Shown here: positions 8,607-16,709 of the stretch, in pieces
Numbering within the stretch: position 1 is the first letter of the stretch
Layout of the letters: every line of letters starts with the position of its first letter
DNA from: Pseudorhodobacter sp. E13
GTDB taxonomy: Bacteria > Pseudomonadota > Alphaproteobacteria > Rhodobacterales > Rhodobacteraceae
Assembly: GCF_003991405.1 (NCBI RefSeq)
Contig: NZ_RPEN01000158.1
Span: 1-64,000 of the forward strand
Direction: 5' to 3'
Length of the DNA stretch: 64,000 nucleotides
Program-made: the position numbers and the translations under genes
Notes under the pieces: model-generated
Databases searched by the model: none
Told to the model about the DNA's origin: nothing
Seen by the model: the letters and a program-made list of their open reading frames with translations, nothing else

Positions 8607-9463
8607 TGGAACCCTTGCTGGATGTCGAGGACCTCTGGGTGCGGTTTCCCACCCGCCAAGGCGTGTTTGATGCGGTGCGCGGCGTGTCCTTTACCTTGGG
8701 CCGCGAGCGGTTGGGGATTGTGGGGGAAAGCGGTTCGGGCAAATCCATGACGGGCCGCGCCATCCTGCGGCTGATCCGCCCGCCGGGGATGGTTGAGGCG
8801 AAACAGATCAGCCTTGGCGGCGTCAATCTGATGGACAAGACCGAAAAAGAGATGCGCGCCGTGCGGGGGCAGCGGATTTCGATGGTGATGCAAGACCCGA
8901 AATTCTCGCTTAACCCGGTGATGACCATCGGTGATCAGATCATCGAGGCGTATCGCCAGCACAACCGCGCCAGCAAGGCGGATGCCTATGCCAAAGCGTT
9001 GGAGATGCTGGAGGCGGTTTCCATCCGCGACCCCGACCGCGTGATGCGCGCCTATCCACATGAGATGTCGGGCGGGATGGGGCAGCGGATCATGATCGCG
9101 ATGATGCTGATCCCCAATCCTGAAATTCTGATCGCGGATGAACCGACAAGCGCGCTGGATGTATCGGTGCAGCGGCAGGTTTTGGATATCATGGACAAGC
9201 TGGTCAAGGATCGTGGCATGGGGCTGATTTTCATCAGCCATGACCTGAACCTTGTGGCCGATTTCTGTGACCGCGTGCTGATCATGTATGCGGGGCGGAT
9301 CGTGGAAATATGTGAGGCGGATAAGTTGTCAGAGGCCAAACACCCCTATACGCGGGGCTTGCTGAACTCCCTGCCCCGGCTGGATGCGCCGCGCGACCAT
9401 CTGGAGGTGTTGCAACGTGACCCGGCCTGGTCCGAGGCCCCAAGTGTGAGTGGCCGGCTATGA
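8603..9463 (+). CDS. ABC transporter ATP-binding protein, DppD type (286 aa)
   Basis: The first ATPase of the peptide importer. Walker A GESGSGKS lies near residue 45, the signature MSGGMGQR near 156, Walker B ILIADEPTSALD near 176, and the H-loop HDL at about 213. The C-terminal oligopeptide-transporter extension is shorter than in E. coli DppD. The start shows tandem ATG codons at 8603 and 8606; either may be used. Overlaps on both sides (TGATG upstream, ATGA downstream) show coupled translation in the operon. Confidence 0.94.
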   Translation: MMEPLLDVEDLWVRFPTRQGVFDAVRGVSFTLGRERLGIVGESGSGKSMTGRAILRLIRPPGMVEAKQISLGGVNLMDKTEKEMRAVRGQRISMVMQDPKFSLNPVMTIGDQIIEAYRQHNRASKADAYAKALEMLEAVSIRDPDRVMRAYPHEMSGGMGQRIMIAMMLIPNPEILIADEPTSALDVSVQRQVLDIMDKLVKDRGMGLIFISHDLNLVADFCDRVLIMYAGRIVEICEADKLSEAKHPYTRGLLNSLPRLDAPRDHLEVLQRDPAWSEAPSVSGRL

Positions 9464-10200
9464 CCATGCTGGAGATCGACGCGCTGAACGTCTGGTTCGG
9501 TCATGGGCGCGACCGGGTGGATGCGGTGAAAGCGGCTTCGTTCAGCGTGGCACGGGGCGAAAGCTTCGGGCTGGTGGGGGAAAGCGGGTCGGGCAAATCC
9601 ACCATCCTGCGCGCGGTGGCAGGGCTGGCGCGCAACTGGTCGGGGCGGATGGCGGTGGATGGTGCGGCGCTGACGGCCAAGCGCCCGCGCAGCTTTTACA
9701 AAACCGTGCAGATGGTGTTTCAAGACCCCTATGCCTCGTTGCATCCGCGCCATTCGGTCGATCAGGTGCTGGGCGAAACCCTGCATCTGCATGGCTTTGC
9801 CGATATTGACGCCCGCGTGGTGAAATTGCTGGAGGATGTGGGGCTGGGCCAGAAATTCCGCTTTCGCTATCCGCATCAATTGTCAGGCGGGCAGCGGCAG
9901 CGGGTGGCCATCGCGCGGGCCTTGGCGCCGGAACCGGACCTGCTGCTGCTGGATGAACCCACCTCGGCGCTGGATGTGTCGGTGCAGGCAGAAATCCTGA
10001 ACCTGCTGGTCGATCTGCGCCGCGACCGCGGGCTGACCTATGTGATGGTATCGCATGACCTCTCCGTCGTCGGCCATATGTGCGAACGATTGGCGGTGAT
10101 GAAAGACGGTCAGATCGTCGAGGTGATGGGCGTAGAGGCGCTGCGCCGCAACGCCGCCACCCATCCTTATTCGCGCAGCCTGCTGGAAGCCTCACTTTAG
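9460..10200 (+). CDS. ABC transporter ATP-binding protein, DppF type, short (246 aa)
   Basis: The second ATPase and last gene of the importer operon. Walker A GESGSGKST is near residue 43, signature LSGGQRQR near 145, and Walker B LLLLDEPTSALD near 163. At 246 residues it is about 80 shorter than typical DppF/OppF. It ends right after the nucleotide-binding domain, so the C-terminal extension with the cysteine cluster found in many homologues is absent. The stop at 10200 is followed by only 36 bases before the convergent end of the giant gene. Confidence 0.93.
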   Translation: MTMLEIDALNVWFGHGRDRVDAVKAASFSVARGESFGLVGESGSGKSTILRAVAGLARNWSGRMAVDGAALTAKRPRSFYKTVQMVFQDPYASLHPRHSVDQVLGETLHLHGFADIDARVVKLLEDVGLGQKFRFRYPHQLSGGQRQRVAIARALAPEPDLLLLDEPTSALDVSVQAEILNLLVDLRRDRGLTYVMVSHDLSVVGHMCERLAVMKDGQIVEVMGVEALRRNAATHPYSRSLLEASL

Positions 10201-10236: not shown

Positions 10237-13200
10237 TTACTTCGGCCATTTATCCGTGATGCTGGCGTCGATCGTGCTGGGCACGGTGCGGTCGCGGTCA
10301 TCAAAATGGATGCAGCTCTTTTCCACCACTTTACGCAGGATGCTGCTGATCGCGGCCACCAGCTTGGGGTTCAGGTTGATCGGCACATCCACCGCCCGGC
10401 CATAAAGATGGTCCGACAGGCTGGCCGCATGTTTGACCACGATCTTCTTGAACTCCGCTTCCTCACCCGCCTTGTAATGATCTTGCAAGGCCTTGAGGAT
10501 ATCGGGGTTGCGGCGCAGATAGCCGTAAATCTCGCCGTTCTTGAGGTTGCCAACCCAGTATTTCCACATCACCCGCGCTTGATCATCGGCATCGCGCAGG
10601 CCCGAGGTGACATGAATCTTGGCCCCTTTGTAATGCGAGGAAACCGCTTTCAACACATTGAGAACATGGTCTTTCACCCCCGCAATATCACCCGTGACAT
10701 TCGGCGGATATTCGGTGGTGTCGCCATCTTCGCGCGCGGTGGGAAAGTCATCCTTCACCGCGCCCGGCCCGGCCTTCAATGCCTTGAAGGTGGTTTTGCC
10801 CGGTGAGATGACACCATCGGGTCGGATTTTCACGACAAGGCTTTGGAACAGGCGGATATTGTCGATGCAGGCTTTGTCGGCTTTGCCGTCCAGCGTCAGG
10901 GTCGGGTAGTTCAACAGCTTGCAGAAGTCGTTGAGCAAGCCTTTGATCGTGTTGACATCGGCAGGCTTGTTCGGCGCGCCGCTGCCAACGGCTTCGGCAA
11001 TTTCGCCTGCGGGGGCTGCGGGGCTTTCGGCCCCGCTGCCAGCTTCGTCGCCAGCCCCTGCGCCGCCTTCGCCGCCACCCGCCGCCGGGGCCTCGTCTTC
11101 TTCCTCGGTCGGAACGGTGCCAAGCTCATCCTGATCGGCCTCTTCTTCCTCGGCCACTTCGGCAATCGCCTCCAGCCGCAGGACGGCTTGTTTCAGATCA
11201 TCAATCCGCCCGGAAATCTCGGTCAGGGTTTTCATGCAGTCTTCGATCATCGGCCCGCCATATTCATTGACGGTCAGCAACAGCTGATCAATCTCGATGC
11301 CCAGATTCAACGCCTTGTCTTTCAGGGCTTTGATCTGGCCTGCCTCGGTGGCGTTTTCAGCTTCGGCAAGTGCGGATTCAAGCTGCTTCTCGATCTCCTT
11401 GGCCTCGCCGATGACCTCGGCGATGGCTTCCTCCAGCATTTTCTCCTCATCGGCAAAGAGCGCAATCAACGCCTTGTTCTCTGCCTTTGCCGCTTCAACG
11501 AAGGCCAGCGCCTTGGCGGTTTCCTCGCGGATGCCTTCCACCGCGCGCTGGGCATTGGTCTGGTCAATCGTGCCTTGGCTTGGGTCCAGCTTGTTGCGGA
11601 TCCGGTCTTCCAGCGTGATCAGCGAGCGATCAATATCATTGATCCAGATTTTGGTATCATTGACGCAATACATGGCATCAGAGCGGGTTTTGACCCTTGC
11701 ATCAATCAAGTCCTGATACTGGTAGATCGACTCTTTCGCGAGCGTTTCGCCAACGGTGCTGGCAAAATCGAGTTGGGCTTTCGCCGTATCCTCCGCAAGC
11801 TTGTCGCCTTCGGCCAATGCGGCCTCGATCTTGGCCAGTTCCGCCACCGCTTCGGCGCGGAATTCCTGCACCGACTTTTGCTGGCCGAACAAGGCATCGC
11901 GCACGGCATCGGTGATATTGCCGATCAGACCTTCGGCGCGCTGCTTCTTTTCGGCCAACATCCCGCTGAGTTTGTCGAACAACTTGCCCGAGGCTTTGCC
12001 AAGCCCACCCAGCACTTTTTTCTCAAAATCAATCAAGCGGTTGGCATTTTCTTGCGCATTGTCAAAAGCCCCGGCAACGAAATTGCCGATGCCGCCAAGC
12101 AAGCCCGTGGCCGCAGATTCGACCTGACCCAAAAGCGCCTCGGCCTCGGCCTGCTTGCGCGCGACCTCCGCTTCAATGGCTTGCAGCACGGCCTGGGCTT
12201 CGCGCTTTACCTCCTCTGCCCGCGTACGGGCATCGTTCAGGGCGGTTTCCGCAGCGCGCGCAGCTTCATCCGCCGCAGTTTCCGCCGCCTCGATGGCTTC
12301 TTCCGAGAAATCTTCAAGGAAGTCTTCGACCCGCTCGCGCGCCTCATCCTTCATCTTTTGAATGGCGGCACGGATTGCAGCAGCTTCGGCGGCAGCTTGA
12401 ATGGCCGCAGCGGCAGCAGCGGCGGCGGCGATCTTGGCAGCCTCCAGCGCTGTGTTGACCGTATCGCTGACCAGATCGGCGCCATCTTCCACCGCGTCCT
12501 GCGCGGCAGCTTCGGCTTCGCGCAGCAGGGCCTCGGCATCGGCTTTGGCCTGTTCGGCGCGGCGCTGTGCTTCGGCGGCGATCTGTTCGGCGCGGGCCTC
12601 GATGCGGGCAATCTTGCTGCGCACCCGCTCCTCGATCTCCAGCCGGGTGCGTTCGATGGCATCAATCGCGGTATCAACGCCTTGCTGGGTGCGGCGGCGT
12701 AATTCTTCGGCAAGGCGTGCGGCACCTTGCTGTATGCGCCCGCCCGCATTGCCGAAATCGCCCAGCAAGCCGCCAAAGAAATCGGCAATCTCACCCCCGG
12801 CGGCGGTGGCCTGATCGAGCATTTCTTTCGCTTCGTTGCCAACAACATCGGCGGCACGCCCGAGGGGGTTGGTGACGCGGTCAAACAGGGCTTGCGCCTC
12901 TTGCAGTTTGCGGTCGGCTTCGGCTTGCGCTTGGGCCAGCAGGTCCTCGGCCAGCCGTTCGGCCTCGGCCACCTTTTCCAACGCCTCGCGGGCGGCGGCT
13001 TCGGCTCTTTCGCGGGCCTGACGCGCGGCCTCCTCGGCGGCGCGGGCGGCCTCTTCGGTGGCGCGGTCAATCACCCCATCGGCGGCACGCGACACAGCTT
13101 GCGCCAGACGGGTTGCGGCCTCTGCGGCGCGGGCGGCGGCGTCTTCGGCGGCTTGGGCCGCCTCAGAGGCGGTTTGTGCTGCGGTCTGCGCTGCGGTTGC

Positions 13201-15258
13201 GGCCTGACGCGCGGCATCTGCCAGTGCGGTGCCAGCTTCCGTCGCCAGATCATTGACCTTTTGCGCAGCATCTGAGGCGCGCGAAACGGCTTCTTGCGCG
13301 ACCGAGCGCGCAGCAGAGGCCGCTTCATTCGCCGCCCGTTCGGCCTGACGCCCGGCCTCGGCCAGACGTTCGGCAATGGCGGTGACGGCGGCAATCGCCT
13401 CATCTACCTTGGCTTCGATTTCAGATTGCACCTGCCCCACAACCCCTTGCGCGGCTTCACCAATCTGGCCTGCGCGCTGTGCGGCCTGATTTGCCACCTC
13501 ACCCGCCTGACGCAGCGCATCGCGGGCCTGACCGACAAGCGATTCTGCCCCGTCTTCGGCCCCGCCCGCAACGCGCGAGATCATATCGGCAATGCCCCCC
13601 AGCAAGCCACGCGCCTTGGTTTCCACCTCTTGCGCGGCACGTTGGGCGGTATCTATGGCGGCATTGGTGGCATCTTCGACCAATTGCACGTTGTCCGTTG
13701 CCGTTTTCGCAGCCGTTTCCGCCGTTTGGCGCGCCGCTTCTGCCAGTTTGCGGGCCGCAGCGGCGGCGGCATCGGCAGCCTTGGCGGCTTTCTCATCCGC
13801 CTCATCCACGGCGGTTTGCGCGGCTTCGGCGGCGCGCTGTGCGGCAGCGGCGGCGTCTTTTGCGGCTTTTTCCGCTTCTGCGGCGGCGGTGCGGGCAGCG
13901 GCTTCGGCGGCCTCTACGGCTTCTTTGGCCTTCTTGGCAAACTCTGCTGCGGCATCACCGACCTGATCCACCGCGCGTCCGGCTTGCGCCCCGGCTGCGG
14001 CTACGGCCTGGCCTGCACCCGCCACGGCGCCTTGCGCGGTCTGGGCTGCAACCTCGGCCGCGTTTGCTGCATTTGATGCGGTTTCGGCCAGTTTGCCCGC
14101 CACTTTCGACGCTGCCCGCGCGATGCCATTGGCCGCGCCCGACACTTTGCCAAACACGCCTTTCGCCGCTTTGCCGATCTTGTCAAACACCCCTTGCGCG
14201 GTTTTCTTGGCCTCTCCGGCGCCTTTTTTCACGGCGTCACCGACGTTTTCCACGGCTTTGCCAACGCCATCGGCCACGCCCGCGGCGGCATCACCCACCG
14301 CCTTGGCACCTTTGCCCACGGCACTGCCGGCCTGTTCCAGCTTGGACACCTCGGTCTGCACAAAAGTCTTGAGCAAGGACAACACAGCCCCTGCCTTTTT
14401 CAGATCGCCCGAGACTTCTTTTTGGAACATCGCGGCCAATTGTTCGGCTTTTTTGGACACGCCTTTCTGGCCGTTTTCGACCAGCAGATCGACCTTGTCT
14501 TCAATCTCTCCGAATTCCTTGGCCAAGGCGTCGCGCAGCGCATCCGGGTTGACGGAGCCTGCTTTTTTCTTGGCCTCCTCCAGCTTGGCCTGAATTTCGG
14601 AAAGCGCGTCCTTGGCGGCGTCAAGCTTGTCCTCGACCCCGGCTTTCAGGAAATCGGCGATGGCCTCGCCCAAGGCGGCCCCGGCCTCTCCAATATTCTC
14701 GGCGGCTTTTTTGATCTCTTTTTCAAGGGCTTCTGCGCGTTTCTTCAATTCTTCGCGCTCTTGATCCTCTTTGGCTTTGGCAGCGTCATCATCGCCGCCG
14801 GTGCCTTGCGCCACGGGCGCGTCCCCGCCGCTATCGCCGCCACCCTCACTGGCAGCGGGCGCTTTGGTGTCTTCGGTGACGTCATCGTCTTCATCGTCCG
14901 CCTCACCAACGGGTTGCCCGGTTGGCCCGAACAGGATCACACGAAAGGCGATCCCCAGTTCCGAAAAGTATTTTTTCGCGACTTTTCCGAGGTTTGGCGG
15001 AAAATCTTCATCCTCGCAGGTCAGTTCGATGTTCTTGCCGCGCACATTCATCTGGCCTTGGGTGCCCTTGGGGCCGCCGCCGCGCCCCTTGGCCAATCTG
15101 CGCATGACATCCGGGCCTTTGGTCGGATGCGCCTCAAGGATCACGCCCTCTTTGGCGATCAGCAACGCGAAATTCAGCGTTTTCTTGCGCGCCTTGGCAA
15201 TATGTTCGTTGATCTCGTCGGCTTCTTTCTTGATATCGGCTGCGGATTTCTTCGCCAT
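10237..15258 (-). CDS. giant alanine-rich coiled-coil protein with peptidoglycan-binding-like and M15-type peptidase domains (1673 aa)
   Basis: Function unknown. In order: an unrecognised N-terminal domain (about 1-118) starting MAKKSAADIKKEADEIN; an acidic, Gly/Ser-rich linker (119-160); a very long helical region (about 160-1176) dominated by Ala, Glu, Lys, Arg and Gln in AAEAA-type repeats; a less repetitive helical part (1177-1362); an acidic linker (1363-1429); a peptidoglycan-binding-like segment (about 1430-1500, with IDNIRLFQ and PDGVISPGKTTFKAL); and an M15-type domain (about 1520-1660). The last has HVTSGLRDADDQ (H1549, R1555), S1615-D-H1617-x4-G-R-A-V-D1624 and I-H1651-F-D1653, matching the zinc ligands of the SxHxxGxAxD families. 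There is no signal peptide and no clear membrane span. An AAGGAG site precedes the ATG. The gene stands alone between the peptide importer and aroB. It may be a secreted or lysis-released cell-wall hydrolase, or an envelope tether; neither is shown. Confidence 0.9.
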   Translation of the reverse strand: MAKKSAADIKKEADEINEHIAKARKKTLNFALLIAKEGVILEAHPTKGPDVMRRLAKGRGGGPKGTQGQMNVRGKNIELTCEDEDFPPNLGKVAKKYFSELGIAFRVILFGPTGQPVGEADDEDDDVTEDTKAPAASEGGGDSGGDAPVAQGTGGDDDAAKAKEDQEREELKKRAEALEKEIKKAAENIGEAGAALGEAIADFLKAGVEDKLDAAKDALSEIQAKLEEAKKKAGSVNPDALRDALAKEFGEIEDKVDLLVENGQKGVSKKAEQLAAMFQKEVSGDLKKAGAVLSLLKTFVQTEVSKLEQAGSAVGKGAKAVGDAAAGVADGVGKAVENVGDAVKKGAGEAKKTAQGVFDKIGKAAKGVFGKVSGAANGIARAASKVAGKLAETASNAANAAEVAAQTAQGAVAGAGQAVAAAGAQAGRAVDQVGDAAAEFAKKAKEAVEAAEAAARTAAAEAEKAAKDAAAAAQRAAEAAQTAVDEADEKAAKAADAAAAAARKLAEAARQTAETAAKTATDNVQLVEDATNAAIDTAQRAAQEVETKARGLLGGIADMISRVAGGAEDGAESLVGQARDALRQAGEVANQAAQRAGQIGEAAQGVVGQVQSEIEAKVDEAIAAVTAIAERLAEAGRQAERAANEAASAARSVAQEAVSRASDAAQKVNDLATEAGTALADAARQAATAAQTAAQTASEAAQAAEDAAARAAEAATRLAQAVSRAADGVIDRATEEAARAAEEAARQARERAEAAAREALEKVAEAERLAEDLLAQAQAEADRKLQEAQALFDRVTNPLGRAADVVGNEAKEMLDQATAAGGEIADFFGGLLGDFGNAGGRIQQGAARLAEELRRRTQQGVDTAIDAIERTRLEIEERVRSKIARIEARAEQIAAEAQRRAEQAKADAEALLREAEAAAQDAVEDGADLVSDTVNTALEAAKIAAAAAAAAAIQAAAEAAAIRAAIQKMKDEARERVEDFLEDFSEEAIEAAETAADEAARAAETALNDARTRAEEVKREAQAVLQAIEAEVARKQAEAEALLGQVESAATGLLGGIGNFVAGAFDNAQENANRLIDFEKKVLGGLGKASGKLFDKLSGMLAEKKQRAEGLIGNITDAVRDALFGQQKSVQEFRAEAVAELAKIEAALAEGDKLAEDTAKAQLDFASTVGETLAKESIYQYQDLIDARVKTRSDAMYCVNDTKIWINDIDRSLITLEDRIRNKLDPSQGTIDQTNAQRAVEGIREETAKALAFVEAAKAENKALIALFADEEKMLEEAIAEVIGEAKEIEKQLESALAEAENATEAGQIKALKDKALNLGIEIDQLLLTVNEYGGPMIEDCMKTLTEISGRIDDLKQAVLRLEAIAEVAEEEEADQDELGTVPTEEEDEAPAAGGGEGGAGAGDEAGSGAESPAAPAGEIAEAVGSGAPNKPADVNTIKGLLNDFCKLLNYPTLTLDGKADKACIDNIRLFQSLVVKIRPDGVISPGKTTFKALKAGPGAVKDDFPTAREDGDTTEYPPNVTGDIAGVKDHVLNVLKAVSSHYKGAKIHVTSGLRDADDQARVMWKYWVGNLKNGEIYGYLRRNPDILKALQDHYKAGEEAEFKKIVVKHAASLSDHLYGRAVDVPINLNPKLVAAISSILRKVVEKSCIHFDDRDRTVPSTIDASITDKWPK

Positions 15259-15593
15259 CTCAAATCTCCTTACTCAAATAAACCATGCGACCCGAAAAAC
15301 CGGGCTGTGCTGCGATCAAAAGCATCTGAACCGACAGGTTCAAACGCGCAGGGTGACAGGGATCACAGAGCAGGACGGAGCGGGGCCAAAACGCCCGCAA
15401 GGCTGAAATATGGTTCAGATTTGCCCGGAATACGCCTGCGGCCCTCCCCCTTGGCCCGTGAAATCACCCAGTAAAAACGCATCCCCAACCGCGAAAACCG
15501 GCCCAATGACGGATGCAAAACGTCAATGCAATTAGGTTTTGTTACCACGAAAACGTGATCTGACAATCGAAGAATTCAGGTTTTGACGGTATT
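15259..15593. other. 335-base intergenic region upstream of the giant gene
   Basis: It separates the end of aroB from the giant gene; both are on the minus strand, so it should hold the giant gene's promoter. A strong ribosome-binding site (AAGGAG) lies next to the giant gene's ATG. A small inverted repeat CACG-AAAA-CGTG sits near 15546-15557. TTGACG on the minus strand at about 15518 has no convincing -10 partner. I see no strong terminator after aroB. A 67-codon frame on the minus strand lacks support as a gene. Confidence 0.5.
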
Positions 15594-16709
15594 TTAGCGC
15601 CCGCGCAGCGCGTCTTTCAGCAGGGTCAGCACCACATCCTTGGGCACATCAGCGGCTACAAAGCTGTTTCCAATGGCTTTTGCCAGAATAAAGCGAAGCT
15701 GGCCATCAACCACCTTTTTATCCTGCCCCATCAGGTCCAGCAGCGCCTCGGCCCCCGGCAGATCGCCGGGAATATCGGCAATATCCACTTTCATACCCAT
15801 CCGGCGCAGATGCGCGCGCACGCGGCTTGGGGCCTCTTGGCTGCACAGGCCCAGCCGCATCGACAGCTCAAACGCCAGCGCGCAACCGATGGCAACGCCT
15901 TCGCCATGCAGCAAACGATCCCCATATCCGGTGGCCTGTTCCAGCGCGTGGCAAAAGGTATGGCCAAGGTTCAGCAGCGCGCGGTCGCCTTCTTCGGTTT
16001 CATCGCGCGCGACAATCTCGGCCTTCATCTCGACCGAGCGGCGCACGGCATATTGGCGCGCGGCACTATCGCCTGCCGCCAGCGCCGGGCCGTTTACCTC
16101 CAGCCAGTCGAAAAAGGTTTCATCGCCCAGCAGCCCGTATTTCGCCACCTCGCCATAGCCCGACAGGAAATCGCGCGGGGTCAGCGTGCCCAACAAGCCG
16201 ATATCGGCCAGCACGAGGGTGGGTTGGTGAAAGGCGCCGATCAGGTTCTTGCCTTGCGGGGCATTGATCCCGGTTTTGCCGCCGACCGAACTGTCAACCT
16301 GCGCCAGAAGCGAGGTGGGGATTTGCACGAAGCCCACGCCCCGGCGCAACACGGCGGCGGCAAAGCCGACCAGATCGCCGATCACCCCGCCGCCAAAGGC
16401 GATGACCAGATCCTTGCGTTCCACCTTTTGGTCCAGCAACCATTCCACCGTGCGGGAAAACTGCGGCCAGCCTTTGGTGCCTTCGCCCGGTGGCAAGGCC
16501 AGCGCGCTGCTGTCGATGCCATGCGCCGACAGCGCCGCCTGAAGGCGTGCCAGATGCAGGCCGCCCACGGTTTCATCGGTGACAATTGCCACGCCGCGGC
16601 GGCGCAGGAACGGGGCGATTTCGGCCCCTGCCCGGTCGATCAAGCCATTGCCGATGCGCACGTCATAGCTGCGCGCGCCCAGATCGACACGAACGATATC
16701 GGTGGTCAT
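15594..16709 (-). CDS. aroB: 3-dehydroquinate synthase
   Basis: Catalyses the NAD- and metal-dependent cyclisation of DAHP to 3-dehydroquinate, step two of the shikimate pathway. The 371-residue length is typical. Family motifs include the GGVIGDLVGFAAAVLRRGVGFVQIPT stretch, SSVGGKTGIN, and the metal ligands E in SGYGEVAKYG, H in LNLGHTFCHALE and H in LLHGEGVAIG. The ATG at 16709 is five bases after the aroK stop, so the two are co-transcribed, the usual arrangement in proteobacteria. Confidence 0.97.
   Translation of the reverse strand: MTTDIVRVDLGARSYDVRIGNGLIDRAGAEIAPFLRRRGVAIVTDETVGGLHLARLQAALSAHGIDSSALALPPGEGTKGWPQFSRTVEWLLDQKVERKDLVIAFGGGVIGDLVGFAAAVLRRGVGFVQIPTSLLAQVDSSVGGKTGINAPQGKNLIGAFHQPTLVLADIGLLGTLTPRDFLSGYGEVAKYGLLGDETFFDWLEVNGPALAAGDSAARQYAVRRSVEMKAEIVARDETEEGDRALLNLGHTFCHALEQATGYGDRLLHGEGVAIGCALAFELSMRLGLCSQEAPSRVRAHLRRMGMKVDIADIPGDLPGAEALLDLMGQDKKVVDGQLRFILAKAIGNSFVAADVPKDVVLTLLKDALRGR

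Follow-up and report, generated by a model that had tools for sequence, protein, structure and literature searches.

The closest described systems are T6SS proteins that carry RIX, which is characterised in the accessible text of its source as an Arg-rich domain of ~55 residues and two helices that is restricted to the Vibrionaceae and Moritellaceae and lies outside T6SS clusters (PMC10435454). According to the same text, 97.7% of the RIX host genomes have a T6SS, the antibacterial types are accompanied by a downstream partner, and secreted-adaptor forms occur (PMC10435454). A WHIX effector is listed with PG_binding1 and Peptidase M15 in the part available of another paper (PMC12135965). In roseobacters, a T6SS of the TssCL type was reported in 2022, and in the accessible text of that report no function is known for these systems (PMC9515649). 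Effectors were predicted there by similarity to 326 validated ones, which in one strain yielded 39 matches: for the most part components of the T6SS, along with three amidases, a peptidase and proteins of housekeeping type (PMC9515649).

We analysed a window of 64,000 nucleotides from Pseudorhodobacter sp. E13 (contig NZ_RPEN01000158.1, positions 1 to 64,000), in which a minus-strand frame of 1673 codons (10237-15258) encodes a protein that we call P0001. Read directly, the frame starts with ATG and gives 1673 residues, and AGGAG stands 7 bases before the ATG. Its coding log-odds of 643 is the highest among the genes listed for the first 30 kb by our own codon script, in which the score rises with length, and its third-position GC is 0.69, compared with 0.74-0.79 in six other frames of the window. 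With this ribosome site and with M15-type zinc residues at its end, the frame is real, as had been claimed. The maximum hydrophobicity of P0001 (Kyte-Doolittle mean, 19-residue window) is 1.5 and falls on a poly-Ala segment, so there is no evident membrane anchor, and no signal peptide was seen by eye, both in agreement with the original prediction. No named family extends over the full length of P0001 in Pfam or NCBIfam. Its parts and its neighbours are as follows:

9460..10200, plus strand: ABC-transporter ATPase gene, left edge of the insertion, convergent with the P0001 gene and 36 bases from it
10237..15258, minus strand: whole P0001 gene, with N-terminal domain, acidic linker, helical rod, second linker, small module and putative M15-type peptidase
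10240..10683, minus strand: putative M15-type peptidase domain, residues 1526-1673, zinc positions H1617, D1624 and H1651
10759..10971, minus strand: small module, residues 1430-1500, with a relative in a 464-residue protein
10969..11166, minus strand: second acidic/Gly-rich linker, residues 1365-1430, sequence read directly
11167..14763, minus strand: Ala-rich amphipathic helical rod, residues 166-1364, recognised by composition and periodicity, containing the segments 236-309 and 310-425
13984..14331, minus strand: Gly/Ala-rich amphipathic stretch with GxxxG-like spacing, residues 310-425, its possible role assigned by analogy only
14332..14553, minus strand: second conserved segment, residues 236-309, with KKAGAVLSLL, also in papain-like members and short carriers
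14764..14901, minus strand: acidic low-complexity linker, residues 120-165, sequence read directly
14902..15258, minus strand: N-terminal marker domain, residues 1-119, common to 82 other open frames in the fetched stretches
15266..15270, minus strand: ribosome-binding sequence AGGAG, 7 bases before the ATG, read directly
15594..16709, minus strand: aroB (3-dehydroquinate synthase), right edge of the insertion, 335 bases from the P0001 gene

Residues from about 166 to 1364 are rich in Ala and Glu, with 19-50% Ala in the 100-residue blocks from 301 to 1000. A helical period of 3.62-3.70 exceeded the 95% shuffle level in 7/7 blocks tested, barely so in the last block (8.9 vs 8.4), and the autocorrelation had maxima at 4, 7, 11 and 18, which indicates an amphipathic helix and not a strict heptad coiled coil. 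Thus, from the Ala-rich heptad-like rod described originally, the Ala-rich helical character stands and the strict heptads do not. The rod had also been called LEA-like, a label that we dropped, as no LEA family was listed at E<=1 in a full-length Pfam scan. Matches of the LEA/apolipoprotein-like kind were rejected, since ApoLp-III (21.8 bits, cut-off 36.3) and Apolipoprotein (17.3 bits, cut-off 90) both fell under their cut-offs. The small module, for its part, had been described as peptidoglycan-binding-like; the full-length scan gave no Pfam match for it at E<=1, PG_binding_1 included, and it is similar (37% across about 73 residues) to the beginning of a protein of 464 residues from another domain-positive genome.

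The N-terminal domain is present in five copies in the genome of P0001, the P0001 copy included, and two of these stand at the head of the T6SS cluster. The searches were seeded with P0001 and its two closest paralogues, and then with their matches, without the use of any T6SS information. A first domain model, built from three loci of the same genome (~115 residues in common), found the domain in 8/101 relatives. The second, built from 23 domains, found it in 34/394 genomes of the family (a lower bound that includes one weak match, 2.2e-4, in G652), in at least 2/385 genomes of the class, namely the genome of P0001 and one of another family (G099), and in at least 1/299 genomes of the phylum, the genome of P0001 itself. 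Scoring in the searches with this second model covered the 11 to 15 best candidates of each genome, so that absences and copy numbers are to be read as lower bounds. Within the samples searched, the domain was thus seen only in its own, Rhodobacteraceae-like family and in one genome of another alphaproteobacterial family. A tblastn search with one carrier returned 22 plasmid records, all below 60% identity, from Leisingera (17), Parasedimentitalea (3), Phaeobacter and Qingshengfaniella; among the matches listed, 20/20 were annotated as hypothetical.

The domain has a mean length of 115 residues with 5.5% Arg, and shows helices and strands in a predicted model of low confidence. It has no name in Pfam or NCBIfam, and no Pfam family was found in more than 2/23 members; a match to the RapZ C-terminal model in 2/23 members (best E 7e-4) was taken as chance. 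No published description of the domain was found in the literature covered, which did not extend to preprints and most subscription papers. With five copies in its own genome and 83 frames in total, P0001 is not the orphan for which it had been taken: by sequence similarity, it belongs to a modular family that is unnamed in Pfam and NCBIfam. The original statement that no described family has this architecture holds for both databases, and the family itself exists.

The 83 frames with the domain in the fetched stretches (82 and P0001) do not include 7 of the 88 domain matches from the 394-genome search, which lay outside the fetched set, and two frames are cut at a stretch end. The domain started within 60 residues of the N-terminus in 73/83 frames, and some of the other 10 look over-extended. 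It occurs twice in six proteins, and stand-alone copies of 113-144 residues also exist. The 77 tails of at least 60 residues fell into 21 groups without BLAST links between them: 34 helical carriers, 10 proteins with HExxH, 7 papain-like proteins, 5 unnamed small proteins, 4 short carriers, 2 endonucleases, and 15 singletons, among them P0001, for which the domain bounds used in the grouping were set by hand. One of the two endonuclease-type proteins matches Endonuclease_NS_2 at 2.9e-13, over the Pfam cut-off. The HExxH and papain-like enzymes are named by motif only: HExxH is kept in 9/10 members of its group and is HQLGR in one, and by our own patterns all three papain-like motifs are present in 5/7 proteins, two in one and one in the last. 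Pfam gave nothing in the one HExxH protein scanned, nor in one papain-like protein cut at the locus end. The unnamed small group was taken as toxin by eye, and no toxin motif was seen by eye in the helical carriers (34/77 tails), a subset of which was scanned.

A group-specific downstream gene was found in 23/24 proteins of the four toxin-like groups. In the HExxH group it encodes a zinc-ribbon protein (9/10; 36/36 pairs match by BLAST), annotated by NCBI as CpXC in Leisingera; in the papain-like group, a protein of 144-205 residues (7/7; 21/21 pairs match); in the unnamed small group, a protein of 93-107 residues (5/5; 10/10 pairs match); and in the endonuclease group, an overlapping small gene (2/2, one of them cut by a stretch end). 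These arrangements resemble effector-immunity pairs, and chaperone pairs would look alike. Downstream genes matched in 26 pairs of helical carriers too, partly as T6SS-cluster genes, which makes the carriers an imperfect control. All these genes were called with our own codon-based script and not with a standard caller; it placed certain starts too far upstream and overlooked certain genes. The HExxH-group protein with HQLGR (L109:5457-8360) has retained its partner gene. Directly after one helical carrier (L045:8293-12967) comes a protein of 1028 residues that contains a protein kinase domain (1.2e-23), and other carriers have large proteins of about 480-1170 residues downstream, which suggests candidate carrier-cargo pairs. 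For P0001, no partner gene was called in the 36 bases to the ABC gene or in the 335 bases to aroB; the latter gap holds a lone 67-codon TTG frame that our script left uncalled.

The domain is tied to genomes with a T6SS marker. TssC (PF05943) was found in 101/394 genomes of the family: in 33/34 domain-positive genomes vs 68/360 others (Fisher p 9e-21, kinship ignored). In 22 genomes the domain is encoded no more than 30 kb from tssC, and in 18 of them the distance is 2.3-3.1 kb. At the loci that we read, the domain gene is divergent from tssA (L042, L034 and L040) or from tssB (L039, where our script missed tssA), and in L042 the domain copy is followed by tssB, tssC, hcp, tagJ, tssE, tssF and tssG. 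The NCBI annotation of Leisingera methylohalidivorans DSM 14336 has a matching arrangement, in which the domain gene is a 'hypothetical protein'; elsewhere, the T6SS gene names rest on inspection by eye, on PF05943 and PF05947, and on the Leisingera annotation. Two genomes with the domain had neither TssC nor TssF, G035 (98% complete) and G004 (84% complete). The clearest exception to the T6SS linkage is a 1885-residue domain protein of G035 with a zinc-ribbon partner (L038:3352-9009). As in the polymorphic effector classes, a shared N-terminal domain (73/83) is combined with diverse C-termini (21 groups), the host genomes have a T6SS (33/34, with G035 and G004 as exceptions), and the toxin types are followed by candidate cognate genes; P0001 itself has no downstream cognate gene.

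The T6SS cluster of the genome is on a different contig from P0001. It encodes ClpV, an ion-channel protein, a TssB-linker-TssC fusion, VgrG, an FHA protein, TssK, TssL and TssM, and two of its genes were placed as follows:

C157:208696-209547 (L093:3696-4547): voltage-gated-channel-like protein (Ion_trans 9.4e-38), inside the T6SS cluster and adjoining the TssCL gene
C157:209547-213485 (L093:4547-8485): TssB-TssC fusion of the TssCL kind, 1312 aa, its linker made up of near-identical repeats

An 'ion transporter' is annotated at the equivalent place in the T6SS cluster of Leisingera methylohalidivorans. By its TssB-TssC fusion, as read in the translated gene, this T6SS is of the TssCL type. 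A second, divergent TssC match was found in 32 of the 33 TssC-positive domain genomes, and in 28 of these its frame had 950 codons or more. Among the six domain-negative genomes picked as being of the same kind, one had its second TssC match in a frame of that length. This comparison covered the listed matches of the 32 domain-positive and the six hand-picked domain-negative genomes; for G706, two TssC matches were counted and one was listed. Eight genomes (G012, G030, G047, G556, G610, G612, G690 and G752) were left out of it, their second TssC matches being of another kind, either partial or separated from the first by about 1.4 kb. We read the TssB-TssC fusion itself in 4 genomes.

At the C-terminus of P0001, H1617 and D1624 (HLYGRAVD from 1617) and H1651 and D1653 (HFDD from 1651) are present as originally described. 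Three separate proteins of other genomes can be aligned with the final 173 residues at 32-35% identity, and the zinc ligands H1617, D1624 and H1651, that is, HxxxxxxD and a distal His, are aligned in 4/4 members. When the four C-terminal domains were scanned alone, Peptidase_M15_3 was matched in 4/4 (best E 4.9e-5); for P0001 the match was 2.8e-4 with 21.4 bits, below the Pfam cut-off of 23.2, and in the full-length scan Peptidase_M15_4 alone among M15 families appeared (E 0.22). A single-sequence structure model of this part had a pLDDT of 47.8, too low to be used. The zinc ligands and the sub-cut-off profile match point to a putative M15 zinc peptidase. Relatives of the P0001 C-terminus were found in 4 other genomes among 295 of the family, three of the M15 part and one of the small module, and all four genomes are positive for both the domain and TssC. 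The three M15 relatives (L157, L158 and L159) are stand-alone proteins without the N-terminal domain and without a signal peptide seen by eye. They occupy one fixed chromosomal place, between genes that we take to be nadD-like and ABC-F-like, which argues against typical mobile toxins.

The original prediction had P0001 standing alone between housekeeping genes, and the comparison with siblings bears this out. Four of the 8 siblings (G004, G005, G006 and G008) have an empty site, at which the ABC gene adjoins aroB with overlapping ends or with a gap of 3 or 46 bases. A different gene, of 237 residues, lies between the two in G002 (L177:670-1383), and the site may therefore be an insertion hot spot. 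A dipeptidase gene adjoins aroB in G001 and G007, and in the stretch of G003 that was examined, aroK alone of the other reference genes was found beside aroB. Because siblings have the flanking genes adjoining without P0001, the P0001 gene is best read as an insertion in its own lineage, and probably a recent one.

Taken together, these results make P0001 probably a cargo effector of the TssCL-type T6SS of its own genome, with an M15 wall peptidase as the putative payload, because the domain is nearly exclusive to TssC genomes, lies beside T6SS genes, and is fused to toxin-like tails with partner genes. The ~115-residue N-terminal domain would be the sorting module through which proteins of otherwise unrelated kinds are directed to the T6SS, the Ala-rich rod may carry or present the payload, the Gly-rich amphipathic start of the rod may aid crossing of, or insertion into, the target envelope, and the C-terminal zinc peptidase would cut wall peptide bonds in the recipient periplasm. 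A wall hydrolase exported independently of Sec was one proposal of the original prediction, and it gains support from the M15_3 matches in 4/4 domains and from the tie of the N-terminal domain to TssC genomes. The cargo reading is weakened by the missing partner of P0001, by G035 and G004, which have no T6SS markers, by the sub-cut-off M15_3 match, by the downstream conservation that helical carriers show as well, and by the fixed place of the M15 relatives. The missing partner would also suit an N-terminal domain that is an adaptor or other accessory fold of the T6SS, be it a scaffold, a chaperone or a spike adaptor, with P0001 as a secreted adaptor or envelope-spanning tether, the M15 domain of which trims the donor wall for machine assembly. 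For such a role speak also the stand-alone copies of 113-144 residues, the single helical carrier group that makes up 34/77 tails without a toxin motif seen by eye, the large second gene, once a protein kinase, that carriers often precede, and the RIX proteins that, in the accessible text, can be secreted adaptors (PMC10435454). We nevertheless consider it unlikely: other members have an endonuclease, a papain-like or an HExxH domain at their end and downstream genes that are specific to their group, and P0001 is probably not a core enzyme of assembly, since four siblings lack it at this site and the T6SS cluster lies on a different contig.

An effector directed against eukaryotes or differently walled bacteria, against which the producer needs no immunity protein, would fit the contrast between P0001, without a partner, and the toxin-like groups, with one in 23/24 proteins; in the text accessible, RIX proteins include predicted anti-eukaryotic effectors without a neighbouring immunity gene (PMC10435454). 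An M15 wall peptidase points to bacterial targets, however, and immunity may be encoded elsewhere or be unneeded, and we regard this possibility as distinctly improbable. Even less is to be expected of a lysis-released hydrolase or an inert long-distance tether unrelated to the T6SS. Both ideas go back to the original prediction and found no positive evidence, and the 33/34 co-occurrence, the copies beside tssA and the toxin-like fusions are against them, despite the lack of a signal peptide seen by eye in P0001, the location of the T6SS cluster on another contig and not beside P0001, and the presence of the domain in G035 without TssC or TssF. We give just as little weight to P0001 being a recently inserted but decaying or catalytically dead effector: HQLGR in place of HExxH in L109 shows that family members can decay, and P0001 has no partner gene, but its 1673-codon frame is intact, its ribosome site is good and its zinc residues are conserved.

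If P0001 is T6SS cargo, it would be a giant M15-bearing member of a class defined by a new marker domain, for a type of T6SS whose effectors are unknown, and the 'orphan giant' would become a member of an interpretable class. Little is known of roseobacter T6SS effectors, and the marker would point to dozens of candidate cargoes, of which many have a partner gene, and so open the function of the TssCL type to direct tests in cultivated strains, for instance Leisingera methylohalidivorans DSM 14336. With less assurance than for P0001 itself, we lean towards a broader view, in which the new sorting domain defines the effector/carrier repertoire of the TssCL type, long-rod cargoes of ~1200-1950 residues are a hallmark of it, and the fused TssCL sheath may have co-evolved with oversized cargo.

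The following comparison relies on the accessible text of the papers cited. The T6SS studied here is like that of the roseobacters in its TssB-TssC fusion and in a gene order resembling the Leisingera methylohalidivorans annotation; the difference is that the N-terminal domain is not mentioned in the accessible part of PMC9515649. With the MIX, PIX and FIX classes the domain has in common that they are marker domains of polymorphic T6SS effectors (PMC12135965, PMC6688995). For MIX, FIX, PIX and WHIX the comparison covered Pfam, in which no family was shared by more than 2/23 members. Like RIX, the domain is an N-terminal one, common to proteins with diverse toxic or toxin-like C-termini in hosts with a T6SS (33/34 here). 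It differs from RIX in its length of about 115 residues, its 5.5% Arg and its helices and strands (low-confidence model), and also in that many copies lie beside the T6SS cluster and that secretion is a prediction here. Membership in RIX, judged by the RIX description, was rejected, as the length of 115, the 5.5% Arg, the strands and the alphaproteobacterial hosts are all against it. WHIX offers the parallel of a T6SS sorting domain joined to an M15 wall peptidase, to which one listed protein adds a peptidoglycan-binding module, but there the M15 domain is apparently in N-terminal extensions, whereas in P0001 it is C-terminal, behind a rod of ~1200 residues. Acinetobacter Tpe14 is likewise a T6SS peptidoglycan hydrolase with Peptidase M15_3, but it has 746 aa, LysM and M23 annotations and no such N-terminal domain (PMC6833914). 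Agrobacterium Tde1 also has a GxxxG-rich stretch, a glycine zipper, in the front part of an effector, but makes use of an adaptor and a DNase domain, and a role of the Gly-rich stretch in P0001 is suggested by analogy only (PMC10240207). In its sorting domain, diverse payloads, partners and T6SS linkage, the family of P0001 would thus match the logic of RIX and WHIX, with secretion as the predicted outcome.
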